60,774 nucleotides of DNA, taken from Oscillospiraceae bacterium. GTDB taxonomy: Bacteria; Bacillota; Clostridia; Oscillospirales; Oscillospiraceae. The position numbers and the translations under genes are program-made. Of this stretch, positions 22,892-38,135 are shown in pieces; position 1 is the first letter of the stretch, and each line of letters starts with the position of its first letter. Below the pieces are notes generated by a model. The model saw nothing but the letters and a program-made list of their open reading frames with translations. It had not been told where the DNA came from and did not search any database. The DNA lies in NCBI GenBank assembly GCA_017620525.1, contig JAGAUY010000085.1, forward strand, positions 1-60,774, read 5' to 3'.

Positions 22892-22941
22892 TATATTGTT
22901 TTTCCTATGTAAATTCTAACGTTTGTTATGGAGGTATAAAA

Positions 22942-25900
22942 ATGAATTGGAAAAGCTACGCAAAACGTCTTGTGTCGCTGGTTCTGTGCCTCATGATGGT
23001 CGTGGGTATGGTGCCCATGAACGTCTTTGCTGCAGAGGCCACCGAAGAGACGGCTGCGCCTGCACCCGTTGAGGCAGCGGCTGCATCTTCTGATATTTCC
23101 CAGGCTTTCCAGGCTTCCGGAGATATCACATCGACACTGAACCAGGGTGACGCTGCCATTGACGGCGGCGAAGCGGGCGTACCGGATGTGTACTCCGTCC
23201 CTGATGCTCAGGCAAATGAGGAGGACGGCACTGTCACCATCCCTGCCTATGATGTTGTCTACAACTCCAATGTCTATCAGCTGGCAAATACCGTTACTTC
23301 CGGTGATTACCTGGTCGTCAGCACCAACGCTGCCGGCAACGGCATCGCCCTGATGAAGAGCGGCACCAGCCTGACTGCATATGCTGTTGTTGTTGAGAAC
23401 GACAAGAACGGCGTCCCCACCATTAAGGTGGAAGACTCCACCAATGTCAAGTGGACTGTCACCGCTTCCGACAGCACTATGACTCTGGTCAACGGCGGCA
23501 ACTATCTGGGCTGCACTGTTAGTACTAACAACGCAAGTCTGGCCATGATCAGTGATTCCAACAACCAATACATCAACTGGAGTTATGGAAACGACCAGCT
23601 GACCATGCCTTATGAAACCAGTGGCGGCTGTGGTGGTACCAATAACACAGGTTACCTGACTGCCAGCAGCACTTCCTGGTCCATCGGCACCTCTGCAAGT
23701 AAGGTCTACTTCTATTCCAAGGTCGATTCCGCAACGGTCACCAGACCCGCTGTGACCTACGGTATTACTGTGTCCGCATCTGACGACACGATGGAAAGCA
23801 TTGACGCAGGCTTTGTCACCCAGAATCAGACCGAGCAGCTGACCAAGGCTTTCTGGACCACTCCCACCGGTAATGAGGGTACTTTGACCGGCGGTACTTA
23901 TGCATGGACTTCTTCCGATGAGTCTGTTGCCACCGTCGAAGCCAATGGCCTGGTTACCTATACCGGCGTCGCAGGTTCTGCCACCATCCGTGTGACCTAT
24001 ACGCAGGATGGCTATGCAATCTGGGACGAGATCACCATTACCACCTCCGCTCCCCACTACGATCTGAACATTGTCGATCCCGAGGACAGCGAGAAGGTGC
24101 TCAGCGATACCACTATCCCCGTCAAGGGGCAGACTGCCATCGATGCAGGTCTGCAGCTGGCTGCGCTGGTTTCCTATGAAACCGAAAATCGCTCCGAGAC
24201 CGTGGAGGATCCTGCCATTACCTGGTCTGTTTCCAATGGCGAGATTGCTTCCATCAGCGAGACCGGTAAACTGACCTTCACCGGTGTTGAGGGTGTCATC
24301 ACCGTCACCGCCACCTATACCGATCCCAACCACGGCGAGCATACCAGCACCGTTAACATCTCTGTTTCCCAGAGTACCTATTATACCCCCAACGACGGCA
24401 CCACCGACTTCCCCGAGTACCCCAACCAGGGCGCTGTCCGTATCGACAAGAACGCTCAGGCAGTCGGCAACTTCAGCGACACCGGTATCGCACAGGTGGA
24501 GCTGTCCATGACCGGTGTTCCCTACACCGCCGGCAGTGAGGTTGACGTTGTCATTATGGTTGATATGTCCGGTTCTATGGATGAGAACAAGGGCGGTACC
24601 CATGATGATCGCGTTCAGCCTGCTAAGGATGCTGTTATCAGCGCCCTGACAGAACTTGTGATTAACGAAGATGGCACATTCAATGATAACCGTGTTGCAG
24701 TCTATACCTTTGCCGGATCTCTGAACCCTAATGGTAATGGTTCCCATGGCTTGGAGGCATTTACTCAGGCTACCTATGACGCCATGACCAATAGAATTGA
24801 CGATGGTGACAGTAGTAATGGTACAATTCAGAAATGGCAAGCAAACGGCGGCACGAACTATACTGCCGCTCTGAAGCAGTGCCATGACGTTCTCGCAAGT
24901 GCTGCTGCTGAAGAAGGTTATGACCGTGAGCAGTTTGTGATTTTCGTTACTGACGGTGAGCCTACTTCCGGCTTTACCTATATCAATGGCAACGGAACCA
25001 CGAATTATTCTAACTATGGTTCTGCACTGTCCGACAATAAGCTGAAGGAACTTGCCGGGTATACCGAGTACTATTCCAATGAGATGAAAAAGTCCGGTGT
25101 TGAGGTCTACTCCATTGGTATTCAGATGGATGAAACTGCCAACGAAGGTACTATTTTGAAGAAGATCGGCGGTCTGGAACAGCTGGATGAGAATGGCAAT
25201 GAAGTCAATGTAAATGCCACCAACTCCGCTTACAGCAAATACGCACAGTTCGTTAAGGATGATGTTTCCGAACTGTCTACTATCTTTGCAAGTATTGTCA
25301 AGGAAATCAAGCAGGCCGCTACCAACGTCACCGTCACCGACCTGGTTGACGAGCACTACAGCCTGATTCTGGAACTGCCCCATGGTGTCAGTGTGGATCA
25401 GGAGTTCTATATCGAAGTAGTTGAATACGAACTGGATGCGAACAAGAACCGTATCGAGCCTGCTACCAGCCTGGAAAAGGTTGTCCTGGCCGATACTGAC
25501 AAGGTGAGCGTCGATGCTGAAGGAAATGTTACTGCAATTGCTGCAGATACCTTTACCTATGATGCAGCCACCAGAACTCTGATGTGGAAGGCAGACAAGC
25601 TCTCCAACACCGAGCTGGCCATTCGCTACTTCGTCTATCTGGACAAGTCCGCCGGCTATGAAGGCGACGACCAGATCGCTGCAGGCACCTATCCCACCAA
25701 CAAGGAAGCAAAGATCGAGTACACCAACCATCTGGACCACCAGTGCCAGAAGTACTTCCCCGTACCTCAGCTGACCTGGAATGGTGCTCAGGTTTCCTAC
25801 ACCTTCTATCTGGTTAACGCCGCCGGTCAGCCTGTTAACCGCGCCGGCCGTGTGGTTCCCTTCGCTGAGGCTGTTTACGTCACTGACGTTTACACCGACT

Positions 25901-27930
25901 CCATCACCTGGGATACCTTCGAGGGCGACCTGTTCAGCGCGAAGAAGATCGCAAGTGAACTGCTGCCCGATATCTACTCCCTGTATGACGAGAACACCAC
26001 CTACACCATCAATGTTTACGAGGATGCCGACGGTGTTGATAAGGGCAACAGCTTTACCATCGTTGCCGGCAACAACACCACCATGGTCTTCAACACCAAG
26101 GCCGGCACCAAGTATTCTTCTCCTGGCACCTACACCGCAGCTGGTGTCTACACCGGCTTCGACTTCGCAAACACCACCGTTGCCTTCGCAGTTATCTGGA
26201 ATGCAACATTGAACCCTGACACCGTCATCATCGACTACGGCCTGCCCGTTGATATCGATGTGACCACCAACGATACCCTGCAGGGTACCGTCCTGGGTAT
26301 CACCGCAGAGAAGCCCGGCATCATCGCTGATACCGGTACCTCCAACACCCGTATGACCTCCGGCACCACCGCTGAGGGTAAGTACGGCAATGCAGAGCTG
26401 AACGGCACCATCGTTCGCTACACTCCCGGTACTACCGGTATGGGCGAGCCCGACGCCGTCTACTACGAGTCTCAGGTGGACTACTACAACAACAACGGTG
26501 TCAAGCAGACCGTTTACATGTACTCCACCGTTACCGTCATCCCCGCTACCACTGTCTACTATGAGGACACCTTCCTGACTCTGGAAGGCAACTGGACTCA
26601 GATGGGCGAGGTCGTGGATGATGCAACTCAGGCCCAGGACCGTCCCGGCGAGAACAAGATCGCTGCGGATCTGGATGCTGACAACAACTACGGCTTTGAC
26701 GCATCCTACGAAAGCATGTCCCTGTACTCTCTGGGCAGCGCCAAGAAGGCCAGCGTCAATAAGGACACCTTTGCAACCGCAGCCTTTACCTTCTACGGCA
26801 CCGGCTTTGATGTCATCGGCCTGACCAGCAATCAGACCGGTATGCTCGTTATCAAGGTTACTGCAGCTGAAGATATCAAGGCAGCCGACGGTTCCGTCCT
26901 CTACACAAAGGGCGCGGTCGTTGCAACCAAGCTGGTTGATACCTACTATGGCTACACCCAGAATGCTTCCGGCGAATGGGATAAGCAAGCAAACAATCCC
27001 AATGCCCTGTATCAGGTACCTGTTATGAAGATTGATGATCTGGACTACGGTAAGTACGATGTCCTGATCACCGCCAGCTACAACGCTACCTTCGACCACA
27101 CCACCGGCACCACCGTCGATAATGGCGATGGCACCACCAGCACGGTTAAGGACGGCTATGATCTGTATCTGGATGCCATCCGCGTCTACAACCCCACCGG
27201 CAACCAGAATGAGACCGCAAACAATGCTTATGTGAAGGACAACGAAGGTTGGCCCGTCATCACCGAGCTGCGCGACAATGTCATTGCTGCTGCAAAGGTG
27301 AACAAAGAAAGACTGAACGGCACCGTCTTCATCGACTGCAACGACGGCACCTATGAAATGGCTGATTACGTCAGCTACGGCCCCAACAACGAGTTGTATC
27401 TGGCTGCCGGACAGGCGATCACCTTCAATGTTACTGCCAGCGATCTGATCGCAGATGTCCAGCTGGGCGTCAAGGTCGGCAACGGCGGCAGTGTGACCTA
27501 CAAGATTAACAACGATGAGTACACTGTCGATACCACTACCGATATGTACTACAGCATCAAGGACTATATCTCCGGCACCATCACCATTCGGAATGTCAGC
27601 GGCGGCATCCTGTCTCTGACCACCATCAAGGTCACCTACAAGCAGGATCCCGGCAGCACCGCAAGCGCAGCAAACCTGCTGTGGATCGACGAGGAAACCG
27701 CTTCCGAATCCGTCCGCAGCCTGGCAAGAGGCAACTTCGTGCCCAGCGTTCCTGAGGTTACCGTTCCCGAGGAGACTATCCCCGAGACCAGCGTGCCCGA
27801 GGTAGAGGAGACTGTTCCCGAGACCACTGTCCCTGAAAACGACAAGACCCAGCCCAGCAGCCACTACGAGAAGATCGTGTCCAAGATCACCAACGCGCTG
27901 AACAATCTGTTTGGCAAGTTATTTCGCTGA
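22942..27930 (+). CDS. Giant secreted vWA/Ig-like surface protein
   Basis: The 1,662 residues begin with a Sec signal peptide (hydrophobic LVSLVLCLMMVVGMV, cleavage near NVFA-AEA). Two bacterial Ig-like (BIG2) domains follow (about 276-368 and 372-476: WTSSDESVATVEANGLVTYTG, WSVSNGEIASISETGKLTFTG). A vWA domain (about 533-790) has a complete MIDAS: DMSGSMD (about 540), the GGTNYTAAL Thr and FVTDGEP Asp. Long beta-rich repeats of pilin or adhesin type follow to about 1,590, then a V-P-E-T repeat stalk. The C-terminus is an amphipathic KIVSKITNALNNLFGKLFR. I see no LPXTG, SLH or dockerin, so anchoring is unusual. The site GGAGGT precedes the ATG. Highly biased codons suggest abundant expression, and codon use relaxes inside the vWA domain. 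It probably binds host or polysaccharide ligands. Confidence 0.9.
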   Translation: MNWKSYAKRLVSLVLCLMMVVGMVPMNVFAAEATEETAAPAPVEAAAASSDISQAFQASGDITSTLNQGDAAIDGGEAGVPDVYSVPDAQANEEDGTVTIPAYDVVYNSNVYQLANTVTSGDYLVVSTNAAGNGIALMKSGTSLTAYAVVVENDKNGVPTIKVEDSTNVKWTVTASDSTMTLVNGGNYLGCTVSTNNASLAMISDSNNQYINWSYGNDQLTMPYETSGGCGGTNNTGYLTASSTSWSIGTSASKVYFYSKVDSATVTRPAVTYGITVSASDDTMESIDAGFVTQNQTEQLTKAFWTTPTGNEGTLTGGTYAWTSSDESVATVEANGLVTYTGVAGSATIRVTYTQDGYAIWDEITITTSAPHYDLNIVDPEDSEKVLSDTTIPVKGQTAIDAGLQLAALVSYETENRSETVEDPAITWSVSNGEIASISETGKLTFTGVEGVITVTATYTDPNHGEHTSTVNISVSQSTYYTPNDGTTDFPEYPNQGAVRIDKNAQAVGNFSDTGIAQVELSMTGVPYTAGSEVDVVIMVDMSGSMDENKGGTHDDRVQPAKDAVISALTELVINEDGTFNDNRVAVYTFAGSLNPNGNGSHGLEAFTQATYDAMTNRIDDGDSSNGTIQKWQANGGTNYTAALKQCHDVLASAAAEEGYDREQFVIFVTDGEPTSGFTYINGNGTTNYSNYGSALSDNKLKELAGYTEYYSNEMKKSGVEVYSIGIQMDETANEGTILKKIGGLEQLDENGNEVNVNATNSAYSKYAQFVKDDVSELSTIFASIVKEIKQAATNVTVTDLVDEHYSLILELPHGVSVDQEFYIEVVEYELDANKNRIEPATSLEKVVLADTDKVSVDAEGNVTAIAADTFTYDAATRTLMWKADKLSNTELAIRYFVYLDKSAGYEGDDQIAAGTYPTNKEAKIEYTNHLDHQCQKYFPVPQLTWNGAQVSYTFYLVNAAGQPVNRAGRVVPFAEAVYVTDVYTDSITWDTFEGDLFSAKKIASELLPDIYSLYDENTTYTINVYEDADGVDKGNSFTIVAGNNTTMVFNTKAGTKYSSPGTYTAAGVYTGFDFANTTVAFAVIWNATLNPDTVIIDYGLPVDIDVTTNDTLQGTVLGITAEKPGIIADTGTSNTRMTSGTTAEGKYGNAELNGTIVRYTPGTTGMGEPDAVYYESQVDYYNNNGVKQTVYMYSTVTVIPATTVYYEDTFLTLEGNWTQMGEVVDDATQAQDRPGENKIAADLDADNNYGFDASYESMSLYSLGSAKKASVNKDTFATAAFTFYGTGFDVIGLTSNQTGMLVIKVTAAEDIKAADGSVLYTKGAVVATKLVDTYYGYTQNASGEWDKQANNPNALYQVPVMKIDDLDYGKYDVLITASYNATFDHTTGTTVDNGDGTTSTVKDGYDLYLDAIRVYNPTGNQNETANNAYVKDNEGWPVITELRDNVIAAAKVNKERLNGTVFIDCNDGTYEMADYVSYGPNNELYLAAGQAITFNVTASDLIADVQLGVKVGNGGSVTYKINNDEYTVDTTTDMYYSIKDYISGTITIRNVSGGILSLTTIKVTYKQDPGSTASAANLLWIDEETASESVRSLARGNFVPSVPEVTVPEETIPETSVPEVEETVPETTVPENDKTQPSSHYEKIVSKITNALNNLFGKLFR
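27744..27840 (+). repeat. V-P-E-T/E coding repeat near the end of the vWA gene
   Basis: Degenerate nine-base units encode repeated VPE and VPET motifs, forming a Pro/Glu-rich stalk between the last beta domain and the C-terminal amphipathic helix. Confidence 0.8.
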
Positions 27931-27945
27931 GAGGAGGAACGAAAC

Positions 27946-28215
27946 ATGAAAAAGACATATACAAAGCCCGAAATCATGTTCGAGAGCTTCACTCTGAGCA
28001 CCAACATCGCTGCTGACTGTGAAGTGAAAACCTGGCAGCCCACCAATAACGACTGCGGTCTCAGCTTCACCGGTATCGGCAATGTTTTCCTGACCGGTAT
28101 GAACGGCTGCAGCGATATGCAGGTCAGCGACGGTGCAGGCGACGGCTATATCGGCAAAGGCAATGATGCAATCTGCTATCATGTCCCCTTCGGTGAAAAC
28201 CTCTTCAACTCCTGA
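27946..28215 (+). CDS. Putative RiPP-like precursor peptide, four cysteines
   Basis: The 89-residue peptide starts MKKTYTKPEIMFESFTLSTN, a leader-like pattern I recall from many small proteins of gut Clostridia. A Gly/Asn/Asp-rich C-terminal part follows, with Cys at 25, 37, 55 and 77. There is no classical signal peptide. The site GAGGAGG lies 8-10 bases upstream and only 15 bases separate it from the vWA gene, so both are on one transcript. Downstream genes encode an HPr-kinase-like protein, a radical SAM/SPASM enzyme and a PqqD-like protein, the usual partners of modified peptides. Leader and core assignment, and modification itself, are inferred. It could instead be a small structural partner of the vWA protein. 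Confidence 0.7.
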   Translation: MKKTYTKPEIMFESFTLSTNIAADCEVKTWQPTNNDCGLSFTGIGNVFLTGMNGCSDMQVSDGAGDGYIGKGNDAICYHVPFGENLFNS

Positions 28216-28233
28216 TCCATAAGTCCAACTACA

Positions 28234-28266
28234 GAAGGCCGCATCATTCGTGGTGCGGCCTTCATT
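28234..28266 (+). terminator. Attenuator-like hairpin after the precursor gene
   Basis: A 13-bp stem gaaggccgcatca/tggtgcggccttc with a TTCG tetraloop is followed only by ATTCAAAT, not a full T-run. Termination would be partial, which would keep the peptide in excess over the downstream enzymes. Confidence 0.75.
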
Positions 28267-28285
28267 CAAATCCGAGGTTATTCCT

Positions 28286-29095
28286 ATGAGCGGAAAGTAT
28301 TTATCCAAAGAAAAAAGCAAGAAACGCCCCAAAGGCGGAATGGGAAAGGTCATTGCGCTGATCTTGGCGCTGGCGGTACTGTGTGCGGCTGTGATCTTTC
28401 TGATCGTATATGATCCCCAGCAGCCTGCCGGACAGCCTGACGGAGAACAGATCAATCCAGAGCAGTCCGAACAGCAGGAAAATGAAAACGTGGCTGAGAC
28501 CCAGGCGGTCGTTCAGCAGACTCCCGCACAGGAGCAGAATTTCGAACTGGACCGGGGCCTTCAGATCACAAAGGTCGGCAGCTACACCGGCGCCTATATG
28601 GAAGATGGTTCTGATGAAGTGGTCAGTGATATTCTGATGATCATGGTGACCAACAGTGGTGAAGAATACATCCAGTATGCCGAGATCGAACTGAGCGGTG
28701 AAAACGGTACCGCTATTTTCAGCTTCTCGACGCTGTATCCCGGAGAGACCATGGTCGTTCTGGAAAAGAACCGACTCGCCTGCGCTGATGAAGTCCGTTA
28801 TACCACCGCAACACTGACTCAGATGGCAGCCTTCAGTGAAACCCCCTCGCTCTGCGAAGAACAGCTGAAGATCCAGCTGCTGGACGGTGCGATCAACGTG
28901 ACCAATATCTCCGGTAATGACATTACCAATGAAATCATCATCTATTATAAAAACTGCACTGACGGCCTGTACTACGGCGGAATTACCTATCGCATCCGCA
29001 TTGCGGAGGGCCTGAAGGCGGATGAAACCAGGCAGATGCTGGCAGAGCATTTCTCCGGGGACGGCAGTAAGATCATGTTCGTCACCTGCGGCTGA
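28286..29095 (+). CDS. Membrane-anchored extracytoplasmic protein of the peptide cluster, function unknown
   Basis: The 269 residues have a basic N-terminus (KYLSKEKSKKRPKGG), one transmembrane helix (VIALILALAVLCAAVIFLIVY) and a Gln/Glu/Pro-rich linker. An exported beta-rich domain follows (ILMIMVTNSGEEYIQYAEIELSG, FSTLYPGETMVVLEKN, two to three Cys). The domain looks like the FxLYD/DUF-type beta sandwiches of secreted Clostridia proteins, but I cannot name a family. ATG at 28286 is preceded by CCGAGG. It ends 4 bases before the kinase-like gene and is clearly in the operon, so it may be an exported partner, receptor or immunity-like factor for the peptide. Confidence 0.75.
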   Translation: MSGKYLSKEKSKKRPKGGMGKVIALILALAVLCAAVIFLIVYDPQQPAGQPDGEQINPEQSEQQENENVAETQAVVQQTPAQEQNFELDRGLQITKVGSYTGAYMEDGSDEVVSDILMIMVTNSGEEYIQYAEIELSGENGTAIFSFSTLYPGETMVVLEKNRLACADEVRYTTATLTQMAAFSETPSLCEEQLKIQLLDGAINVTNISGNDITNEIIIYYKNCTDGLYYGGITYRIRIAEGLKADETRQMLAEHFSGDGSKIMFVTCG

Positions 29096-29099
29096 CCAA

Positions 29100-29954
29100 A
29101 TGGAAAAATTCTATCGTTTTGCCGGCATTGAGCTGTCGGTCGAGATCCCGGACGATCAGATGTTTACGGATGCCAGGGATCTTACCCCCTTTGAAGTGAA
29201 TTCCGTATCTGATCCCCATCGCTTTCGGTTCGAACTGGTGGAGCAATTGCAGGCACCGAAAGGCAGCTGCGTTGCAGCGCCCCCGGGCGTTCGGATCTAT
29301 GAAGAAGAGACGTGGACTGTCCGCTACAGCGGCAGTGTTCAGGATTCCTGGGAACCAGCCTACATGCGTTCTGCCCACAGGGGGAAGGATCACATCGTTC
29401 AGGTGAAGGCATCCCAGTATTCCGGCCGCATAGGAGCACATGTGGTGCTGGGCAGTCTTGCCGCTGAGCATATGATTGCCGGGGCCGGAGGCTTTGTATT
29501 TCATTCTTCGTATATTGAATGGAATGAAAGGGGCATCCTGTTTACAGCACCCTCCGGTACGGGAAAGTCTACCCAGGCTGAGCTTTGGCGCAGGCTCCGC
29601 GGCGCCCGCATCATCAACGGCGACCGCTCTGCGGTCCGCTTTGAGAACGGTGCTGCGGTTGCGGATGGGATTCCATTCTCCGGAAGCTCCCAGGACTGTA
29701 TTAACCGCACATTGCCGCTGGCGGCTGTGGTCTATCTCAGCCAGGCACCGGAGACGACGATTCGAAAGCTGCGCGGTTACGAGGCATTCTTCCGAATCTG
29801 GGAGGGATGCAGTGTGAATACCTGGGACGCAGAGGATATGCGTCTGGTATCAGAGACGGTCAAAAAGGTGTCGGAGACGGTGCCTGTGTATCATCTGGCC
29901 TGCACACCGGATGAAACTGCGGTGCAAGCGTTGGAGCATGTTCTCAGAGAGTAG
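29100..29954 (+). CDS. HPr-kinase-like P-loop protein
   Basis: The 284 residues include a C-terminal HprK-type ATPase fold with P-loop FTAPSGTGKSTQAELW (about 149-163), a GGFVFHSSYIEW strand before it and the acidic IINGDRSAVRF segment after it. The N-terminal ~120 residues are not the HprK/P sensor domain. True HPr kinases are about 310 residues with a GDSGVGKSE loop and a capture motif, and are housekeeping genes. Truncated relatives occur in modified-peptide clusters such as paeninodin, where the homologue phosphorylates the precursor. Here it lies 9 bases before the radical SAM gene. A peptide kinase or another ATP-dependent role is inferred. Confidence 0.8.
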   Translation: MEKFYRFAGIELSVEIPDDQMFTDARDLTPFEVNSVSDPHRFRFELVEQLQAPKGSCVAAPPGVRIYEEETWTVRYSGSVQDSWEPAYMRSAHRGKDHIVQVKASQYSGRIGAHVVLGSLAAEHMIAGAGGFVFHSSYIEWNERGILFTAPSGTGKSTQAELWRRLRGARIINGDRSAVRFENGAAVADGIPFSGSSQDCINRTLPLAAVVYLSQAPETTIRKLRGYEAFFRIWEGCSVNTWDAEDMRLVSETVKKVSETVPVYHLACTPDETAVQALEHVLRE

Positions 29955-29963
29955 GTTGATATC

Positions 29964-31085
29964 ATGAATAAGACAAGCACAGAACCTTATATTTCCACTT
30001 ATCTGCATCAAAAAGGTAGACGGTTGGGTATTCCCGTTGCAGGCAATTTCGAACTGACGGCACGGTGCAACTTCAACTGTCCCATGTGCTATGTCCATAT
30101 GAGCGAGGAGCAGGTCCGCGCTTCCGGAAAGGAACTGAGTGCCCGGCAGTGGCTGACCCTTGCCCGGGAGGCAAGGGATAAGGGGATGATCTTTGTCCTG
30201 CTGACGGGCGGCGAACCGCTGGTGCGGAAGGACTTCTTTGAGATCTACCGGGGAATGAAGGAAATGGGACTGCTGATTTCCATCAATACCAACGGCTCCA
30301 TGCTGCGCGGTCAGGTTCTGGAGGAGTTTTTGAAGGATCCTCCGTTCCGGTTCAACATTTCCCTCTACGGCGGCTGCAATGAAACCTATCAGAAGATGTG
30401 CGGCATTCCTGCCTATGACCGGGTGAAGGAAAACATCCGGACGCTGCGCAGCGCGGGTGTGGAAGTGAGTCTGAATCTGTCCATCACGCCCTATAATTTT
30501 CAGGATTTGGAGCGTATTTACGCAGATGCTTTGGAACTGGGCGTGAATGTGAAGGCATCTTCCTATATGTACCCTTCTGTACGGGTCAATGGGGAGCAGT
30601 TCGGCTGCGGCAATCGCCTGTCTGCCCGGGAGGCAGCCCGCTACAGCGTGGCATGGGATGAACTGCGCTTTACGGATGAGGAGTTCACGCTGCGTGCAGA
30701 GAATATGCTCAAAAAGGTAGCCGATGTGCGGGAAGGCTGCCCGGTGGAACCGGGCGAGGGTGTGACCTGCCGCGCCGGCAGCACCAGCTTCTGGGTCACC
30801 TGGGACGGCAAGATGATGCCTTGCGGCATGATGACCAAGCCTGTGGTCTATCCGGCGGAAGTGGGTTTCTCAGCTGCCTGGGAGGAACTGAAGACCGAAA
30901 CCCGGAAGATCCGGATGCCCACCGGATGTGCCAACTGTGAAAACAAGGAGATCTGCGCGGTCTGCGCAGCTGTGTGCTTCACGGAAACCGGACGATTTGA
31001 CGGTGTTCCCGCCTATGTCTGCGAAAAGACCCGGGAGCAGCTGCGGATCACCCAGGAAGTCTGCGCGGAAAGGAACAAGAAATGA
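29964..31085 (+). CDS. Radical SAM/SPASM peptide-modifying enzyme
   Basis: The 373 residues have the radical SAM cluster motif CNFNCPMC (Cys35, 39, 42) after an N-terminal segment and GGEP (about 87-90). The C-terminal SPASM domain has many cysteines (CRAGSTSFWVTWDGKMMPC, CANCENKEICAVCAAVC), which bind auxiliary 4Fe-4S clusters. Family members form thioether, C-C or other crosslinks in peptides, or mature cofactors such as PQQ and mycofactocin. The four-base overlap with the PqqD-like gene (ATGA) couples enzyme and peptide-recognition partner. The most likely substrate is the 89-residue peptide upstream. The chemistry cannot be told from sequence alone. Confidence 0.9.
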   Translation: MNKTSTEPYISTYLHQKGRRLGIPVAGNFELTARCNFNCPMCYVHMSEEQVRASGKELSARQWLTLAREARDKGMIFVLLTGGEPLVRKDFFEIYRGMKEMGLLISINTNGSMLRGQVLEEFLKDPPFRFNISLYGGCNETYQKMCGIPAYDRVKENIRTLRSAGVEVSLNLSITPYNFQDLERIYADALELGVNVKASSYMYPSVRVNGEQFGCGNRLSAREAARYSVAWDELRFTDEEFTLRAENMLKKVADVREGCPVEPGEGVTCRAGSTSFWVTWDGKMMPCGMMTKPVVYPAEVGFSAAWEELKTETRKIRMPTGCANCENKEICAVCAAVCFTETGRFDGVPAYVCEKTREQLRITQEVCAERNKK

Positions 31086-31342
31086 CTATCAAGAAAGAAC
31101 TGATCAAGCGGGAGATCGCGGGGGACACCATTCTGGTGCCCGTGGGAAAGACCGTATACGATTCCAACGGCCTGTTTGTAATGAACGAACTTGCGGCCTT
31201 CATCTGGGATATGCTGCCCCGGGTGGAAAATGAGCAGCAGATCTGCGAAGCGGTTGTGAAGGAATACGACGTGTCGGAGGAGGAAGCCAGCCGGGACATC
31301 GCTGAGTTCCTTGGCAAGCTGCGGAAATTGGATATCATTTGA
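31082..31342 (+). CDS. PqqD-like RiPP recognition protein
   Basis: The 86 residues match the PqqD family (PF05402): VGKTVYDSNGLFVMNELAAFIWDML and YDVSEEEASRDIAEFLGKLRKL. PqqD-type winged-helix domains bind leader peptides and hand them to the modifying enzyme. It is coupled to the radical SAM gene by a four-base overlap and is the last gene before a terminator. Confidence 0.9.
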   Translation: MTIKKELIKREIAGDTILVPVGKTVYDSNGLFVMNELAAFIWDMLPRVENEQQICEAVVKEYDVSEEEASRDIAEFLGKLRKLDII

Positions 31343-31380
31343 TAAAAATACCCCCGTGATGTTTCATCACGGGGGTTAAA
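31343..31380. terminator. Bidirectional terminator between PqqD-like and nucleotidyltransferase genes
   Basis: A 12-bp perfect stem acccccgtgatg/catcacgggggt (31350-31376) has a 3-base loop. The minus-strand side is followed by ATTTTTATC (good), the plus side by TAAATCATT (weaker). Confidence 0.85.
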
Positions 31381-32622
31381 TCATTCTATGATTCCGTATT
31401 CTTTCAGAAGAGCAATGCGCTGATTGCCGATTCTGAGCGCGTCTGAGGCGCTGCCGGACTGATCCCGGGCGGATTCGAAGCAGTATTTGCCGATCCGGTC
31501 CAGCCAGGCGGCCGGGAGCAGATAGGGTCTGCTTTTCAAATACGGATATTTGTGCTCGAGATTTTTTGCGGGAGGGAACAGGGAAAGCAGAAGAGAATTT
31601 CCGGCTTTTCGTCCCTGCTTTTGGGAGACCACCGCTTCCAGGGTAATGTTGCTGCTGTGTCTGCGGCTCAGGTTGGCATTGCCGTAAACGCCGCCGGAAA
31701 GCAGATCTTCCAGCATGGGGTTCTCATCGACTGGGATATCCCGCCAACTGGGAGGGTAACAGGCTTTCTGCGGATCGAAAACAAGATGATTACTGCCGAT
31801 TTTGAATATGGCAGCGGCAAAGCGGTCGGCACGGATGGCTCTGCACCGCAGGAGAATCGCATCCCAATCGATATTCTGACCGCATGTGTTGGCAAACATG
31901 ATGATATCGCAGACCTGCCGGATACCGAAACCGCTGTGAAGGAAATGCTTAAACGCATGACAGATCAGATAGAACAGGTGATCGGTGCAGCCCATGGTCC
32001 AGACAGGAACACCCTGGATGGTTACAGATGCGGACTGCCTGAAAACATCCGGGAAGAATCGGTTCAGATCGCCGTAGGCTTCCGATTCCGGAGGGAACAG
32101 ATGGCGGTGCAGTTCGATATAGAGCTGGCTGTTATCCATCCGGTAAGGAATCTCGTAGACCTGACAGAACTGCTCCGGTAGCACCGCCGTCTCCATGCCG
32201 AAAGCACAAAGCTGCTGGTGGCAGGAAAAAGTCAGTTCCGGCGGGATCAGCAGGTCCTCGTCGCTGGAGACCCGGTGATCGGGGTGAGGATAGAGGCTGC
32301 GGCAGATGATTCCCTTGACCACCAGCGGACGGATGCCGGTATCAAGGAATTTACGGTAGAGATCCAGAAATTCACAGGTCTTCTGGGTCTGTACAAAGAC
32401 CTGCTGGCGCACCTGCCGGCGGATAACAGGAAGCCAGGGTGCACTTTGAAGCTCAGGCAGACCATGAACAGCTTCGAAAATCAACGGCAGGATGTGATGG
32501 CTCTGGGACAGTTTCATCAGCTGGGCCCAATCTTCGGAGCTCAGGTCTGCGGCAGTCTGCAGCTGTTCGCCTTTCAGGGCGCAGCGCAGGATATGAAGAA
32601 AGTGCCTGTTCAATCGGTCCAA
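31381..32622 (-). CDS. NTP_transf_5-type nucleotidyltransferase family protein
   Basis: The 413 residues fit the uncharacterised nucleotidyltransferase family PF14907: LVVKGIICRSLYPHPDHR followed by SSDEDLLI (acidic pair), VPVWTMGCTDHLFYLICHAFKHF and GFGIRQVCDIIMF. As I recall, members occur in lasso-peptide clusters that also carry HprK-like and PqqD-like genes, and in surface-polysaccharide loci. The start is a TTG at 32622, chosen because GGAGGTG lies 8 bases upstream and no ATG fits. It is the only minus-strand gene between 17 and 58 kb, with its own promoter divergent from the exporter. It may nucleotidylate the peptide or a sugar. Confidence 0.8.
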   Translation of the reverse strand: MDRLNRHFLHILRCALKGEQLQTAADLSSEDWAQLMKLSQSHHILPLIFEAVHGLPELQSAPWLPVIRRQVRQQVFVQTQKTCEFLDLYRKFLDTGIRPLVVKGIICRSLYPHPDHRVSSDEDLLIPPELTFSCHQQLCAFGMETAVLPEQFCQVYEIPYRMDNSQLYIELHRHLFPPESEAYGDLNRFFPDVFRQSASVTIQGVPVWTMGCTDHLFYLICHAFKHFLHSGFGIRQVCDIIMFANTCGQNIDWDAILLRCRAIRADRFAAAIFKIGSNHLVFDPQKACYPPSWRDIPVDENPMLEDLLSGGVYGNANLSRRHSSNITLEAVVSQKQGRKAGNSLLLSLFPPAKNLEHKYPYLKSRPYLLPAAWLDRIGKYCFESARDQSGSASDALRIGNQRIALLKEYGIIE

Positions 32623-32884: not shown

Positions 32885-34603
32885 ATGGGATCATTCCGGA
32901 CAACGGTCAGACAATTCCATAAAGAAAACGCGGATCAGGTGAAGCGGGAACTGAACTGGATTTGGCACCGGATCCTGGAATACCGCCGGATGATCGTGAT
33001 CGTGGGCCTGTTGGGGCTTTGCGGCACGGTGATGTCGCTGGTGTCCAGCGTGGCATCCAAGTATCTGATCGACGCGGTGACGGGTCACGGCGCGGACATC
33101 ATCGGCCGGGCAGCGGCCATCATGGCCGGCATGATGCTCGGAAGCCTGGTGCTTCAGGCGGTTTCTTCCCGGGTCAGCGCATCCATCCATGTCCGGGTGC
33201 GAAACCGGATGCAGCGCACCACCTACGGTAAGATCCTCCGGGCAGCATGGGAAGCGCTGGAGCCGTACCGCAGCGGTGATCTGCTGAACCGGCTCAATTC
33301 CGATATCAATACGGCCGCAGATGGTGTGATCAGTTTCCTGCCCAGTCTGCTGACTTCCAGTGTGAAATTCCTGGGTGCCTTCTGCATCATGCTGTACTAT
33401 GATCCTGTGATGGCGCTGATCGCGCTGGTTGGTGCTCCGGTAACGCTGCTGCTGTCGAGAGTACTGATGCGCAAGCTGCGCCAGCATAACCTGACTATGA
33501 AGGAACTGACCGGTGAGGTCATGTCCTTTCAGGAGGATTCTTTCCGGAATCTGACCAGCATCAAAGCGTTCTCTGTAACAGACCGCTATGAAGACGAAAT
33601 GCGCAAGCTCCAGGGAGAATATGCCGACGCATATCTTTCCTTCAATTCCTTCCAGATCGGAATGTCCTCGCTGCTGTCTCTGGTGAGTATGCTGGTGACG
33701 GCTGCCTGCTTCGGCTGGGGCGTTTACCGCCTGTGGACCGGAGCAATCACCTATGGCTCCATGACCATGTTCCTGCAGCTGGCGACGACCCTGCGGGGGG
33801 CCTTTTCCGCGCTGGTATCGCTGGTGCAGCAGGCCATCTCCATCACCACCTCTGCCGGCCGCATTATGGGCGTTGAGGAACTGCCCGAGGAAAAGGGCGC
33901 GATTCCCGAGGGATTCGACGGGGAGGATGTGCTTCAGATCGCTTTGGAGCAGGTATCCTTCCAGTATCAAAATGGCGACATGGTGCTTCATACATTTGAT
34001 TTCACGGCCCGTCCGGGAGATCAGATCGCCATCATCGGGCCTTCCGGTGAGGGTAAGACCACCCTGCTGCGGCTGCTGCTGGGATTGGTGGAGCCCTGCG
34101 AGGGCAGTGCGGAACTGATCGGCGGAACCGGAAAGCGCTACCAGCTTTGTGCCGGAACCCGGGGAGTATTTGCATATGTTCCCCAGGGAAACAGTGTGTT
34201 TTCCGGTACCATTGCCCAGAATCTGCGGATCGTTGCTCCGGAAGCAACGGAGCAGGAAATGGAGCAGGCGCTGAAAACAGCCTGCGCCTGGGAGTTTGTC
34301 AGGCAGTTTCCGGACGGACTGGACCATCCTCTGGGTGCCGGCGGACGGGGGATTTCCGAAGGACAGGCGCAGCGTCTGGCCATTGCCCGGGCACTGCTGC
34401 GCAGAGCGCCGATTTTGCTGCTGGATGAAGCGACCTCCGGCCTGGATGCCGCAACAGAGCGGCGTCTGATGGAGAATCTGCGCGAAAGCGGCATGGTGCG
34501 TACCTGTATTCTGGTGACCCATCGCCCCGGCAGTGCGGAATTCTGCAATCGTACTTATGAGATCCATCATGGTCGTGTAACTGAGGTGGATTATGGAGCA
34601 TAG
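32885..34603 (+). CDS. ABC exporter, fused membrane and ATPase domains
   Basis: The 572-residue half-transporter has six N-terminal membrane helices (to about 320) and an ATPase domain: Walker A GPSGEGKTT, Q-loop YVPQG, signature ISEGQAQRLAIARAL (ISEGQ where LSGGQ is usual), Walker B ILLLDEATSGLD and switch His in LVTHRP. There is no N-terminal C39 peptidase domain, so it does not cleave a double-Gly leader itself. Such exporters carry peptides, lipids or lipid-linked sugars. It directly precedes an S26-like protein gene (11-base overlap) and lies between the peptide genes and polysaccharide genes, so either cargo is possible. Confidence 0.9.
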   Translation: MGSFRTTVRQFHKENADQVKRELNWIWHRILEYRRMIVIVGLLGLCGTVMSLVSSVASKYLIDAVTGHGADIIGRAAAIMAGMMLGSLVLQAVSSRVSASIHVRVRNRMQRTTYGKILRAAWEALEPYRSGDLLNRLNSDINTAADGVISFLPSLLTSSVKFLGAFCIMLYYDPVMALIALVGAPVTLLLSRVLMRKLRQHNLTMKELTGEVMSFQEDSFRNLTSIKAFSVTDRYEDEMRKLQGEYADAYLSFNSFQIGMSSLLSLVSMLVTAACFGWGVYRLWTGAITYGSMTMFLQLATTLRGAFSALVSLVQQAISITTSAGRIMGVEELPEEKGAIPEGFDGEDVLQIALEQVSFQYQNGDMVLHTFDFTARPGDQIAIIGPSGEGKTTLLRLLLGLVEPCEGSAELIGGTGKRYQLCAGTRGVFAYVPQGNSVFSGTIAQNLRIVAPEATEQEMEQALKTACAWEFVRQFPDGLDHPLGAGGRGISEGQAQRLAIARALLRRAPILLLDEATSGLDAATERRLMENLRESGMVRTCILVTHRPGSAEFCNRTYEIHHGRVTEVDYGA

Positions 34604-35072
34604 AGTGCGGGTTCTGGAGCCGGAAGAACTGATGGCGCAGCTGCCCCGGCTCCTGGAAGAAACTGAAAGTGTTCCGCTGGTCATCAGCGGAAACAGCATG
34701 TCCCCGTTCCTGGTTCACGGACGGGACACAGTGTTTCTTTCGAAGGTGACGCAGCCGCTGAAGCGTGGGGATATGATTCTCTATCGCAGAACGGGCGGGG
34801 CATATGTCCTGCACCGGATCTGCGGTGTCCGTGGGCAGATACTCCGTCTCGTAGGGGATGCTCAGAACATGATCGAAAGCGGCATCCGCCGGGAGCAGGT
34901 GCTGGCAATTGTGACGGCTGTCCGGAGGAAGGGGAAACTCCTGAAAAAGGGAGATTTCTGCTGGGACTTTTTTGAAAAAATCTGGCTGCGGCTGATCCCG
35001 TTCAGACCGCTGCTGATTCGTATGTATACCGTATTGCGGGCATCGCCCAATGGGGAGAATGAAGATGATTGA
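34593..35072 (+). CDS. S24/S26-type signal peptidase-like protein (SipW class)
   Basis: The 159 residues carry the serine box SGNSMSPFL (Ser35) and, instead of the usual catalytic Lys, a VLHRI motif (His74), as in SipW and eukaryotic-type signal peptidases. GDMILYRR and GDAQN complete the fold. SipW processes biofilm matrix proteins in Bacillus. An N-terminal membrane helix is not evident; a moderately hydrophobic C-terminal segment (LRLIPFRPLLIRMY) might associate with membrane. It overlaps both neighbours, so it is an operon member. It could release the leader of the exported peptide or act on another secreted product. Confidence 0.8.
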   Translation: MEHRVRVLEPEELMAQLPRLLEETESVPLVISGNSMSPFLVHGRDTVFLSKVTQPLKRGDMILYRRTGGAYVLHRICGVRGQILRLVGDAQNMIESGIRREQVLAIVTAVRRKGKLLKKGDFCWDFFEKIWLRLIPFRPLLIRMYTVLRASPNGENEDD

Positions 35073-35793
35073 TCTGCACAGCCATATTCTGCCGGAACTG
35101 GATGACGGTTCACGGAGTCTCGGTGAATCGCTGGAGATGGCACAGGTGGCCGTGCAGAGCGGTGTTGCGGCGATGGTCGCTACGCCCCACTGTATGGATG
35201 ACCGGACAAGAGATGTCCGCTGGGCAGTACTGCTTCTGCGGGACGCACTGGAAGAAGCAGGGATCCCGCTGCGGCTATATATGGGGATGGAGATTTTCGG
35301 CACGTCTGAAACGGCCCATCTCCTGCAGGACAGAAAATTGTTTACGCTCAACAACTCCAGATATCCTCTGATCGAATTCTCCTTCCGCTCCAGCGGACGG
35401 GAGGAAACACGCATCCTGGAAAGTGTGATCCGTGCCGGATACCGGCCGCTGGTGGCACATCCGGAACGCTATGGCTATCTGCAGGAGGATCTGGGACTGA
35501 TCAATGAATGGAAGCGGATGGGCTGTTTATTTCAGATCAACAAGGGCAGTTTGACAGGCCGCTTCGGAGCGGCGCCCCGGAGGTTGGGAATGGATCTGGT
35601 GGAACGGGGATTTGCCACTGTGGTCGCCAGCGACAGCCATTCTCCGACGGTGCGTACGCCATGGATGAAGGATGTGCAGAATTTGCTGTACCGTCAGGTT
35701 TCTCCCGCAGCGGCGGAATATTTGCTGCTGCATAATCCCAGAAGTATCATCAAAAACGAGAATATACCGCCGGCAGAGCCGGAGTGGTTTTGA
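35065..35793 (+). CDS. cpsB: CpsB/YwqE-type tyrosine-protein phosphatase (PHP domain)
   Basis: This metal-dependent phosphotyrosine phosphatase reverses BY-kinase autophosphorylation and controls polymer length or amount. The 242 residues show metal-binding motifs DLHSHILPELDDG, VATPHC, GMEIFG, VAHPERY and ASDSHS. Three in-frame ATGs exist (35050, 35059, 35065). GGGGAG lies 7 bases before 35065, and the protein then begins MIDLHSHILP like its relatives, so 35065 is chosen. It overlaps the S26-like gene by 8 bases. The two kinases it should act on are at 36687 and 38151. Confidence 0.93.
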   Translation: MIDLHSHILPELDDGSRSLGESLEMAQVAVQSGVAAMVATPHCMDDRTRDVRWAVLLLRDALEEAGIPLRLYMGMEIFGTSETAHLLQDRKLFTLNNSRYPLIEFSFRSSGREETRILESVIRAGYRPLVAHPERYGYLQEDLGLINEWKRMGCLFQINKGSLTGRFGAAPRRLGMDLVERGFATVVASDSHSPTVRTPWMKDVQNLLYRQVSPAAAEYLLLHNPRSIIKNENIPPAEPEWF

Positions 35794-35809
35794 TAAAGAG
35801 GCGAATGCT

Positions 35810-36682
35810 ATGAAAAAAAGGAAATGGCTCCATCTGGCGCTGATCGTGGTGTGCCTGATGCTGTTTGCCGGTTACCGGGCAATGGGTACTCTGGCGGCGG
35901 ATAAGACCGCTCCGGAGATCAGTATGGATGGACAACTGCTGCAGGTATCTGTGCAGGATCCGAGAACTGCCCTTCTGCAGGGCGTAACGGCAAAGGATAA
36001 GAATGACGGCGATGTGACATCCTCCCTGGTGGTGGAGCGCGTCGCGCTGAAAAACAGTGACGGTACCGCCAACGTGACCTACGCCGCATTTGACAAGGCG
36101 GGAAATGTGACCAAAGCCCAGCGGGAAGTGAAATACACGGACTATGAAAGTCCCAGATTCACGCTGACGGCGCCGCTGGCATTTCCCCAGAACACGGGAT
36201 TTGATGTTCTGAGCATTGTTCATGCGCAGGATGTCGTGGACGGCGATGTTACCCACCGGGTACGGGCCAGTTCCCTGGATGATACTGTGATTACCGCGCT
36301 GGGTGTCCACAGCATTGAATTCCGGGTAACCAATTCCCTGGGAGAGACGGTGGAACTGGTGCTGCCGCTGGAGGTCTATCTGGCCGGCTCTTTCCAGGCG
36401 GGTCTGGCGCTGTCGGACTATCTGGTCTATCTGCCCGTGGGATCCTCCTTCAATGCCCAGAGCTATCTGAAGACATTCACGCTGGGCACGGAAAGTGTGG
36501 CGCTGAATAATGGACTTCCTGCAAATTACGCGCTTCGTACAAGCGGTGAAGTGAATACAAGCACTCCGGGTGTGTACAGCGTGGACTACAGAGTCACCTA
36601 TACCAGAGTGAATCAGACTAATCCCGATCTGAATCAGACCTATACCGGTTATTCCAAACTGATCGTTGTGGTGGAAGGGTAA
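35810..36682 (+). CDS. Secreted or membrane-anchored Ig-like (DUF5011-type) protein
   Basis: The 290 residues start with a signal peptide or anchor (LHLALIVVCLMLFAGYRAM). Two to three beta-sandwich repeats follow with the DUF5011/Big_3 pattern of 'D..AP.I' then 'V.AKDKNDGDVTSSL' and 'YAAFDKAGNV'; a second unit has VHAQDVVDGDVTHRV and 'GVHSIEFRVTNSLGE'. It sits between the phosphatase and the first BY-kinase, where capsule loci usually encode a Wzz-type protein. It may help chain export or cell attachment at the outer face. ATG at 35810 has AAGAGGCG upstream. Confidence 0.8.
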   Translation: MKKRKWLHLALIVVCLMLFAGYRAMGTLAADKTAPEISMDGQLLQVSVQDPRTALLQGVTAKDKNDGDVTSSLVVERVALKNSDGTANVTYAAFDKAGNVTKAQREVKYTDYESPRFTLTAPLAFPQNTGFDVLSIVHAQDVVDGDVTHRVRASSLDDTVITALGVHSIEFRVTNSLGETVELVLPLEVYLAGSFQAGLALSDYLVYLPVGSSFNAQSYLKTFTLGTESVALNNGLPANYALRTSGEVNTSTPGVYSVDYRVTYTRVNQTNPDLNQTYTGYSKLIVVVEG

Positions 36683-36686
36683 ACCT

Positions 36687-38135
36687 ATGGAAAACAAGAA
36701 TGAATTACATGCGGACGAATCGGGCTTCATGCCCTTTGATCCCATCGTCCTGATTCAGGATGTGGCCAAACGGTGGCTGCTGATCCTGCTGGCGGCGCTG
36801 ATTGTCGGCATTGGTGCGTATATCAAGACGGATATGGAATATGCGCCTGTCTATCAGACCAATACCACATATGTGGTTACGACCCGCAGCAGCTCCTCCA
36901 CGGTCTACAGCAATCTCTCGTCCACCAGCACACTGGCATCGGTGTTCACAGAACTGCTCAACAGCTCGATCCTGCGCAATGCGATCCTGCAGGAGATCGG
37001 CGCCAAGTCATTTAACGGAACGATCAATGCTGCGGTGATTCCGGAGACGAATCTGGTGACGGTGCAGGTAACCGCGTCGGACCCCAGAACGGCGTTCCTG
37101 GTGGCTCAGGCGATCATCGACCATCATGAAACAGTGACTTATCAGGTGGTGGACGGCATTTCTCTGGAAGTGCTGCAGAATCCTGTTGTCCCCACGGCTC
37201 CTGCGAATTATGCCAATGCTTCTGCTCAGATGAAGCGTATGATGGTGCTGACGGCGCTGGTGGTGTTCGGAGTTCTGGCCATCGCCTCCTATCTGCGCGA
37301 CACCGTCCGCAGCGGCAAAGAAGCCAGACAGAAACTGGAATGCGATTATCTGGGTGAGATTCCTCATGAGCAGAAGTATAAGACCTTGTTCTCCCGGATC
37401 CGTCATAAGAAAACGAGTATCCTGATCACCAATCCCATTACCAGTTTCCGCTTTGTGGAGACCATCCGCAAGCTGCGCCGTCGGGTGGAGCAGCATATGC
37501 ACGGTGACAAGGTTCTGATGGTCACGAGCCTTCTGGAAAATGAGGGCAAGTCCACGGTAGCGGTGAATCTGGCACTGGCGATGTCCCAGAAGCATGCCAA
37601 GGTGCTGCTGATTGACTGCGACCTGCGCAAGCCTGCCTGCCACGCGCTGCTGGAGCAGAAGAATGTGCCCTACGGCCTGCGGGATGTGCTGATGGGAAAG
37701 GCAAATCTGGCCGATGCCATGGTCCGGGATAAGCGGAGCAATCTGTTCCTGCTCCTGGAAAAGCGGGGCACCAAGAACTCCGGCGATCTGCTGGCTTCCG
37801 AGCGGATGCAGGCGCTGCTCAGGTGGGCACGGAAGGAGTTTGACTTTGTGGTGCTGGATCTTCCCCCCATGGCAGAGGTTTCCGATGCGGAAAGCATTAT
37901 GGAACTGGCTGATGCCAGCCTGCTGGTTGTTCGTCAGAACACGGCAGTGGCGCCTGCTGTCAATAAGGCGATCGCATCTTTGGACAGCGGCAAGGCAAAG
38001 CTGCTCGGCTGCGTTCTGAACAATGTCAGCTCCACATCACTGTCCTCCGGCCAGGGTTACGGCTACGGCGGTTACGGTAAGTATGGTCATTACGGCCATT
38101 ATGGCCACTACGGAGCCAAGGGTTCCGGGAAATAA
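36687..38135 (+). CDS. Wzz/BY-kinase fusion 1 (polysaccharide co-polymerase and tyrosine kinase)
   Basis: The 482 residues have a Wzz-type chain-length domain between two membrane helices (WLLILLAALIVGIGAYI and MMVLTALVVFGVLAIASY). A cytoplasmic BY-kinase follows: Walker A in TSLLENEGKSTVAVNLA, Walker A' VLLIDCDLRKPA, Walker B FVVLDLPPMAE. The C-terminus is a Tyr/Gly/His tail (GYGYGGYGKYGHYGHYGHYG), the autophosphorylation cluster. Gram-positive systems usually split these functions over two proteins, so the fusion resembles the proteobacterial Wzc layout. The Walker A (ENEGKST) deviates slightly from the usual PGEGKST. It is followed 15 bases later by a paralogue. Confidence 0.92.
   Translation: MENKNELHADESGFMPFDPIVLIQDVAKRWLLILLAALIVGIGAYIKTDMEYAPVYQTNTTYVVTTRSSSSTVYSNLSSTSTLASVFTELLNSSILRNAILQEIGAKSFNGTINAAVIPETNLVTVQVTASDPRTAFLVAQAIIDHHETVTYQVVDGISLEVLQNPVVPTAPANYANASAQMKRMMVLTALVVFGVLAIASYLRDTVRSGKEARQKLECDYLGEIPHEQKYKTLFSRIRHKKTSILITNPITSFRFVETIRKLRRRVEQHMHGDKVLMVTSLLENEGKSTVAVNLALAMSQKHAKVLLIDCDLRKPACHALLEQKNVPYGLRDVLMGKANLADAMVRDKRSNLFLLLEKRGTKNSGDLLASERMQALLRWARKEFDFVVLDLPPMAEVSDAESIMELADASLLVVRQNTAVAPAVNKAIASLDSGKAKLLGCVLNNVSSTSLSSGQGYGYGGYGKYGHYGHYGHYGAKGSGK

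Follow-up and report, generated by a model that had tools for sequence, protein, structure and literature searches.

What does a compact operon produce when it places a radical S-adenosylmethionine (SAM) enzyme with a SPASM domain beside an HPr-kinase-like (HprK-like) protein and a PqqD-like protein? The question is raised by positions 27,946 to 31,342 of contig JAGAUY010000085.1 (positions 1 to 60,774, forward strand), a stretch of 60,774 nt referred to here as the window, which belongs to the genome of a gut bacterium of the Oscillospiraceae (GCA_017620525.1), 2.09 Mb in 103 contigs and 68% complete. An original prediction, made from the DNA letters, had described a peptide-modification operon comprising a small peptide, an attenuator-like hairpin, a membrane-anchored protein, an HprK-like P-loop protein, a radical SAM/SPASM enzyme and a PqqD-like protein, and all these elements were located where it had placed them and in that order (Table 1). 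The genes after the hairpin are as tightly packed as it had stated, with 4 nt between the membrane protein and HprK-like genes, 9 nt between the HprK-like and radical SAM genes, and a 4-nt overlap between the radical SAM and PqqD genes. Absent from that description were a gene encoding a giant secreted protein with a VWA domain (22,942 to 27,930) and the genes of an ATP-binding cassette (ABC) exporter and a signal peptidase I-like (SpI-like) protein (32,885 to 35,072). A second copy of the cassette is present on another contig of the same genome, the two radical SAM proteins being 68% identical. We propose, with a probability of roughly 60%, that this operon encodes a ribosomally synthesised and post-translationally modified peptide (RiPP) and represents a radical SAM branch of the phosphopeptides of the linear polyphosphorylated peptide (LPP)/paeninodin type, with a recurrent giant surface partner.

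The cassette was traced in 99 genomes, 61 from one genus (including that of the window) and 38 others of the same order. A relative of the radical SAM protein (E value of 1e-60 or better) was detected in 16 genomes, every one within the genus, and eight matches spread over seven genomes were at least 59% identical. A scan with one genome per species yielded 33 loci, nearly all from Oscillospiraceae, Lachnospiraceae, Clostridia or their kin, with a ruminant source stated for 19 of them. The 24 close radical SAM loci (window included, some of them ending at contig ends) carry, besides the radical SAM gene in all 24, genes for the HprK-like protein (23), the membrane protein (22), the PqqD-like protein (20), the giant protein (19) and the peptide (19), in the conserved order giant, peptide, membrane protein, HprK, radical SAM, PqqD. 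The giant and peptide genes are absent at the five others (L064, L066, L067, L079 and L080, the last of which ends at a contig end). The original prediction would have been undermined if homologues of the radical SAM gene consistently lacked a nearby peptide of this type, and the peptide is present at 19 of the 24 close loci. Because its parts recur over these loci, the cassette is real and conserved, and more than a product of chance.

Co-occurrence across the genomes follows the same pattern. The conserved C-terminal domain of the giant protein was found in 14 of the 99 genomes, comprising 12 of the 16 with the radical SAM gene versus 2 of the 83 others (p = 1.6e-10; within the genus, 12/16 versus 2/45, p = 8e-8), in Fisher tests that ignore the relatedness of the genomes. 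One of the two remaining genomes, G022, has the peptide, membrane protein and HprK genes followed by the beginning of a radical SAM gene that is interrupted by the contig end (L098). The genomes are mostly incomplete metagenome-assembled genomes, so that absences carry little weight. The nucleotidyltransferase NTP_transf_5 occurs in 10 of the 16 radical SAM genomes versus 3 of the 83 others, and the SpI-like protein in 14/16 versus 22/83 (14/16 versus 15/45 within the genus). As side observations, one contig (L055/L068) carries a tandem pair of complete cassettes, separated by about 14 kb and provided with a giant gene apiece, and two radical SAM genes stand side by side at L069.

Precursor peptides were recognised through an N-terminal motif or through similarity to the window peptide, which gave 41 distinct precursors from all searches, one row per locus after removal of the duplicates L034, L035, L037, L038 and L098 (loci with no recognised precursor lie outside the 41). 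They share a leader motif, Y-x-x-P-x-[I/L/V/F], near the N-terminus; most carry IA(A/G/S) shortly before the first cysteine, and the main group has four cysteines, the last within CYH, with three in one further group. All 41 end in serine, preceded by a variable residue, and the C-terminal serine is likewise present in 27 of 27 rows picked by the N-terminal motif alone (window row added by hand). According to PMC9266682, the HprK-like kinase PadeK modifies the C-terminal serine of the paeninodin precursor. Given this analogy and the invariance of the residue, the C-terminal serine is likely the phosphorylation target in this operon.

The enzymes were compared in alignments of 49 radical SAM proteins, 45 PqqD-type RiPP recognition elements (RREs) and 43 HprK-like proteins, window included, with incomplete or too short open reading frames (ORFs) left out. 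The window proteins matched Radical_SAM (PF04055, 2.2e-26) and PqqD (PF05402, 2e-16) above the Pfam cut-offs; the SPASM match (0.0018) fell slightly under its cut-off, and the SPASM cysteines are nevertheless conserved. Cysteines C35, C39, C42, C269, C287, C331 and C334 are retained in 49/49 proteins, C322, C325 and C353 in 47/49 (two gaps) and C259 in 42/49, so that the CxxxCxxC and SPASM cysteines expected of a radical SAM/SPASM peptide maturase are in place. The window RRE aligned with LppB (9x8z; E = 0.0061), its N35 and D72 corresponding, in a numbering fitted by us, to N33 and D70, which fix the Pro and Tyr of the YxxP leader in LppB; these residues suit the window precursor, since its leader contains YxKP. 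Among the 45 linked RREs, D72 is invariant and position 35 is N in 34, T in 8 and S in 3. A defence system was also considered and rejected: the only PADLOC matches were to viperin models (best 4e-17) and covered residues 28-182 of the radical SAM protein, its general radical SAM core; none of the other six proteins gave a match.

The HprK-like identity of the P-loop protein is weak when the protein is taken singly, the ScmC model scoring 1.3e-5 with no Pfam HprK match and no match among solved chains. A 33-member profile, however, retrieved HprK structures as the best solved relatives (E = 0.0045), in agreement with the original prediction. In this profile alignment H135, K156 and D175 correspond (in our numbering) to His140, Lys161 and Asp179, which PMC9399212 gives as active-site residues of HPrK/P, Asp179 being the proton acceptor/donor. 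The catalytic His, Lys and Asp179 equivalents are retained in 43 of 43 aligned radical-SAM-linked proteins.

To place the operon among known systems, we compared it with the LPPs, reported in 2026 from the lpp cluster of Paenibacillus alginolyticus (PMC13381572). The window holds the LPP core set of discrete RRE, HprK-like protein, NTP-transferase, MsbA-like ABC exporter and SpI-like peptidase, the HprK-like and SpI-like calls being remote, as well as the Asn33/Asp70 equivalents of the RRE, a YxxPx[V/I/L] leader and an exopolysaccharide (EPS)/capsule setting, and both lack a lasso cyclase. In contrast to the LPPs, which are linear products with no further primary modifying enzyme, it includes a radical SAM/SPASM gene, a Cys-rich precursor, an N-G-D kinase subfamily, a giant VWA partner, a membrane-anchored protein and a convergent NTP-transferase gene. 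The LPP motif YxxPxVLxHQxIxFETxxS matches the window leader, YTKPEIMFESFTLS, in its YxxPx[I/L/V/F] part and differs in the remainder. LppK modifies Ser3 of the LppA core (PMC13381572), whereas the likely window core, which starts DCEV at the predicted cleavage site, has no serine at its start. Six LPP-like candidate precursors, which we picked from 14 candidate rows by their MK..YxxP start, belong to loci where no radical SAM match was found (here and below, over a distance of about 1.5 kb, more at L095 and L097). The last residue is D in those of L115 and L127, L in that of L121, I in that of L122 and W in those of L124 and L129; the three from L115, L122 and L129 have a serine within three residues after I-x-T, as in LPP. 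Since the invariant serine of the window family is C-terminal and none stands at the likely core start, the window system is not filed as an LPP member, yet it would work like one.

The paeninodin-type lasso peptides, among which pseudomycoidin is also grouped, share with the window an HprK-like kinase, an NTP-transferase and a precursor ending in serine. They differ in having a WxxP rather than a YxxP leader, Gly in the RRE where the window family has Asn, Thr or Ser, and a complete His-Lys-Asp-Asp kinase set, one residue of which is Gly here. A lasso filing was rejected, since neither a B2 protease nor an asparagine-synthetase-like macrolactam cyclase was matched among 20 window proteins scanned with Pfam, a subset of the window ORFs. 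The original prediction had also proposed that radical SAM chemistry replaced lasso cyclisation. Kinase, RRE and nucleotidyltransferase are indeed kept, and gene content supports a RiPP-type operon linking them to radical SAM chemistry; replacement is not the simplest history, however, because the LPPs, the closest described relatives, are already without a lasso cyclase. Sactipeptides and ranthipeptides likewise combine a SPASM radical SAM enzyme with a Cys-rich precursor. The window differs from them in its additional genes for a separate RRE, an HprK-like protein, an NTP-transferase and a giant partner, and thioethers are a predicted product there. In the searchable full-text literature, which leaves out most subscription papers, no description of an HprK-like kinase combined with a radical SAM enzyme in a RiPP system was found, as judged from titles, abstract openings or text passages: the passages of PMC4289311 mention HPr kinase in lasso clusters only, and the main text of PMC13381572 does not contain the term radical SAM. 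The constancy of the C-terminal serine, the giant linkage, the N-G-D HprK clade and the covarying hairpin are new here.

The giant protein is a recurrent companion of the peptide. A relative of the window giant lies upstream of 36 of the 41 precursors, at 9-19 nt in 27 of them (15 nt in the window) and between a 4-nt overlap and a 192-nt gap in eight; at L060 the giant gene is broken into pieces, with the long piece 2.5 kb from the precursor. Of the five precursors with no related giant upstream, four (L045, L047, L049 and L069) are preceded by an ORF without recognisable similarity and one (L048) by no ORF. Many giants measure 1300-3150 amino acids (aa), some ended by contig ends. VWA, Big_2 and Big_3 domains were detected by Pfam, together with a GBS104-like tip-pilin Ig domain in one distant giant, and these domains make an adhesin-like role plausible; the L039 giant matched no Pfam family, and no relative of the conserved C-terminal domain was found in a search of solved structures. 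Many giants finish in a PE/T-rich linker followed by a short amphipathic aromatic C-terminus (LFGKLFR, LFGWLFN). No LPXTG-like signal was seen by eye in the giant C-termini inspected, and an unusual surface anchor is possible.

This linkage raises the alternative that the giant VWA protein, or both proteins, is the modified substrate and the small peptide its assembly or targeting factor. The short distances just described would suit it, as would the giant-peptide pairs that occur without adjoining enzymes. The giants, however, look Sec-secreted and their cysteine content varies (5-19 in near full-length ones), while the YxxP leader motif and the constant cysteines belong to the precursor, the giants not having been searched systematically for an RRE-binding motif. 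We consider this alternative improbable, and retain the small peptide as the substrate of the radical SAM branch. The pairs without enzymes were found in genomes G040 and G057 (L100, L101, L102 and L107, with L100 retaining the membrane protein), each of which also holds one close enzyme set (L066 and L064, respectively) beside ilvC/ilvD-like genes. The coexistence of such pairs with a separate enzyme set suggests that dispersed pairs might be matured in trans; both genomes also carry more distant radical SAM relatives, and either kind of set may be the one that acts. In three genomes the enzyme set without giant and peptide (L064, L066 and L079) stands next to what we take, from their sequences, to be ilvC/ilvD-like genes, with the same flanks on both sides; we read all three sets as probably acting in trans.

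The attenuator-like hairpin between the peptide gene and the enzyme genes proved to be present, conserved and covarying. Folding of positions 28,215-28,300 gave -29.5 kcal/mol (z = -4.4), a value equalled in 0 of 200 shuffles. A GC-rich hairpin follows the precursor gene in 18 aligned close loci, out of 19 with the peptide, L060 having been left out because of a long gap. With the pairing taken from the window row, 96.7% of the cells at 12 pairs are paired, nine pairs changed on both sides, and none of 500 shuffles, which ignore relatedness, scored as high; covariation thus rules out a chance hairpin. A T-run follows it in some loci only, and we read the structure as a putative partial terminator.

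Several observations weigh against the proposed reading, the first concerning the kinase. All 43 linked HprK-like proteins have Gly before the Asp179 equivalent (N-G-D for N-D-D), and the similarity of the window protein to HprK is in any case remote. In the paeninodin-type lasso kinases all four residues of His-Lys-Asp-Asp are essential by mutation, according to a review, and Gly in place of an essential Asp is thus what speaks most strongly against taking the protein for an ordinary kinase; it may be no kinase, or not one for serine. In a tree of 74 kinase domains, the 46 radical-SAM-linked ones split from the 28 others on one branch (support 100/99) and appear as a separate N-G-D clade; L116, L140 and L142, from 29 newly searched loci, and L113, the same place as L097, were left out. 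The HprK-like protein could accordingly use ATP to present the peptide, or be a phosphotransferase with another mode of action, the peptide being modified by the radical SAM enzyme only and the serine serving recognition or export. This we regard as rather unlikely: the equivalents of H135, K156, S/T157 and the proton-handling Asp179 are kept, the C-terminal serine is constant, and N-G-D also occurs in 2 of 30 kinases from loci fetched with an LPP-like kinase query, none of which had a radical SAM match. The remaining 28 have N-D-D, in a set that leans to N-D-D, as it consists of the best matches to an N-D-D query.

The remaining difficulties for the phosphopeptide reading concern the other parts. 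LPP-like RREs mostly share the leader-binding residues (D in 15/20, N in 18/20), and such N and D residues are widespread among RREs, which makes them not specific to LPP. The membrane protein is weakly tied to the radical SAM gene (10/16 versus 13/83 genomes; p = 0.03 within the genus), and a search of solved structures with it gave nothing convincing. The DNA around the 24 close loci shows the ABC gene in 5, the SpI-like gene in 3 and NTP_transf_5 in 7. Few close loci have the first two, and the relative L087, in which the cassette is missing, still carries an ABC-SpI-CpsB-CpsD block; the exporter and the SpI-like protein may therefore act for the polysaccharide genes instead. In favour of a link to the cassette, SpI-like, HprK, radical SAM, PqqD and ABC genes form one run beside Cps genes at the distant locus L096, and PqqD, radical SAM, HprK, ABC and NTP_transf_5 genes lie beside Cps genes at L081 (Hungatella). 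At L090, L091 and L092, in three genomes with the radical SAM family, NTP_transf_5 and SpI-like neighbours occur, and no RRE or kinase match was found in the locus DNA.

Finally, the trio of HprK-like, PqqD and radical SAM proteins is not unprecedented. In SynChlorMet, ScmC, ScmD, ScmE and ScmF form one cassette, for which we know of no giant VWA partner. The corresponding NCBIfam models (TIGR04248-TIGR04251) describe an HprK-like ScmC, a PqqD-like ScmD and the radical SAM/SPASM proteins ScmE and ScmF, against a single radical SAM gene in the window cassette; the name SynChlorMet is absent from the searchable full-text literature. The operon might therefore be a divergent cassette of the SynChlorMet, pyrroloquinoline quinone (PQQ) or mycofactocin type, whose peptide becomes a redox cofactor or a small pheromone rather than a phosphopeptide. 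Indeed, ScmC is matched by 32 of the 33 HprK-like proteins in the profile (best 6.3e-11), and the ScmE, PqqE and mycofactocin models recognise the radical SAM protein. The scores are nevertheless far under the curated cut-offs (ScmC 24.7/125, ScmD 19.6/100 and ScmE 75.3/400 bits), no protein in four genomes exceeds the ScmC cut-off, and the long constant C-terminal part of the peptide is unlike a cofactor core of 2-3 residues. An exact SynChlorMet, PQQ or mycofactocin filing is ruled out on scores or missing parts, and a divergent version of one appears very unlikely.

Returning to the radical SAM branch of LPP/paeninodin-type phosphopeptides, we infer each chemical step as follows. The PqqD-type RRE would grip the YxKP leader of the precursor, as its conserved residues suggest, and present it to the radical SAM/SPASM enzyme, which would modify the Cys-rich core, most likely by forming thioether links from the conserved cysteines. 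The HprK-like protein would phosphorylate the invariant C-terminal serine, and NTP_transf_5 may decorate it further. By analogy with LppS/LppD, leader cleavage near I-A-(A/G/S) would fall to the SpI-like protein and export of the core to the MsbA-like ABC transporter. Outside the cell, the product would work with the giant VWA/Ig-like protein, its partner by linkage, and with the membrane-anchored protein at an exopolysaccharide-coated surface. The hairpin would keep part of the transcription that covers giant and precursor from reaching the enzyme genes, leaving the precursor in excess over the enzymes. A more far-reaching version, which we offer only tentatively, is a RiPP class with radical SAM cross-links in a four-Cys core and a C-terminal serine (poly)phosphorylated, perhaps glycosylated, by N-G-D kinases that evolved with their substrate; its members would be obligate surface partners of giant adhesin-like proteins, one enzyme set maturing several dispersed pairs per cell.

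LPPs have no known role, according to PMC13381572. What the branch proposed here adds to them is radical SAM chemistry, a serine fixed at the C-terminus and, most importantly, a giant secreted protein that recurs as a partner. The role of EPS-linked phosphopeptides thereby becomes a testable question, namely whether they bind, lock or are displayed on an adhesin-like surface protein. The branch also provides a natural comparison for target choice by HprK-like RiPP enzymes, N-D-D versus N-G-D kinases and a serine near the cleavage site versus one at the C-terminus.

Table 1. Features of the cassette and its surroundings in the window.
Feature	Position	Strand	Characteristics
Giant secreted protein (1662 aa)	22942..27930	+	Signal-peptide-like N-terminus, Big_2, VWA with DxSxS, conserved C-terminal domain (about aa 1187-1575), then a PE/T-rich linker and an amphipathic C-terminus
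Precursor peptide (89 aa)	27946..28215	+	YxKPEI leader motif, possible leader end IAA (residues 21-23), 4 Cys (25, 37, 55, CYH), C-terminal Ser
Conserved RNA hairpin in the precursor/enzyme gene gap	28234..28263	+	Terminator/attenuator-like
Membrane-anchored protein, function unassigned	28286..29095	+	Single N-terminal hydrophobic segment (by eye)
HprK-like protein	29100..29954	+	H135, K156 (P-loop), N173-G174-D175
Radical SAM/SPASM enzyme	29964..31085	+	CxxxCxxC at 35/39/42, SPASM cysteines
PqqD-type discrete RRE	31082..31342	+	N35, D72 (equivalents of LppB N33, D70)
NTP_transf_5 nucleotidyltransferase, convergent	31381..32622	-	Pfam match 4.1e-44
MsbA-like ABC exporter	32885..34603	+	Peptidase domain not found in domain scans of the protein
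SpI-like (S24/S26) protein, candidate leader peptidase	34593..35072	+	Below curated cut-offs (28.8 of 47 bits)
Exopolysaccharide genes adjoining the cassette	35050..38135	+	CpsB/CapC, surface Ig-like protein, Wzz/ParA-like

The cassette lies within an exopolysaccharide locus in which Pfam identified Polysacc_synt_2, LytR_cpsA_psr, Bac_transf, glycosyltransferases, CpsB/CapC, Wzz/ParA, EpsG and Polysacc_synt. A prolipoprotein diacylglyceryl transferase-like gene (PF01790; 22,190-22,891) stands between a glycosyltransferase gene and the giant gene. The minus-strand ORF at 22,843-27,864, antisense to the giant gene, is taken as a probable shadow ORF. Where the PqqD and NTP_transf_5 genes converge, a further hairpin (31,351-31,376) was recognised by eye in the gap and is probably a two-way terminator.

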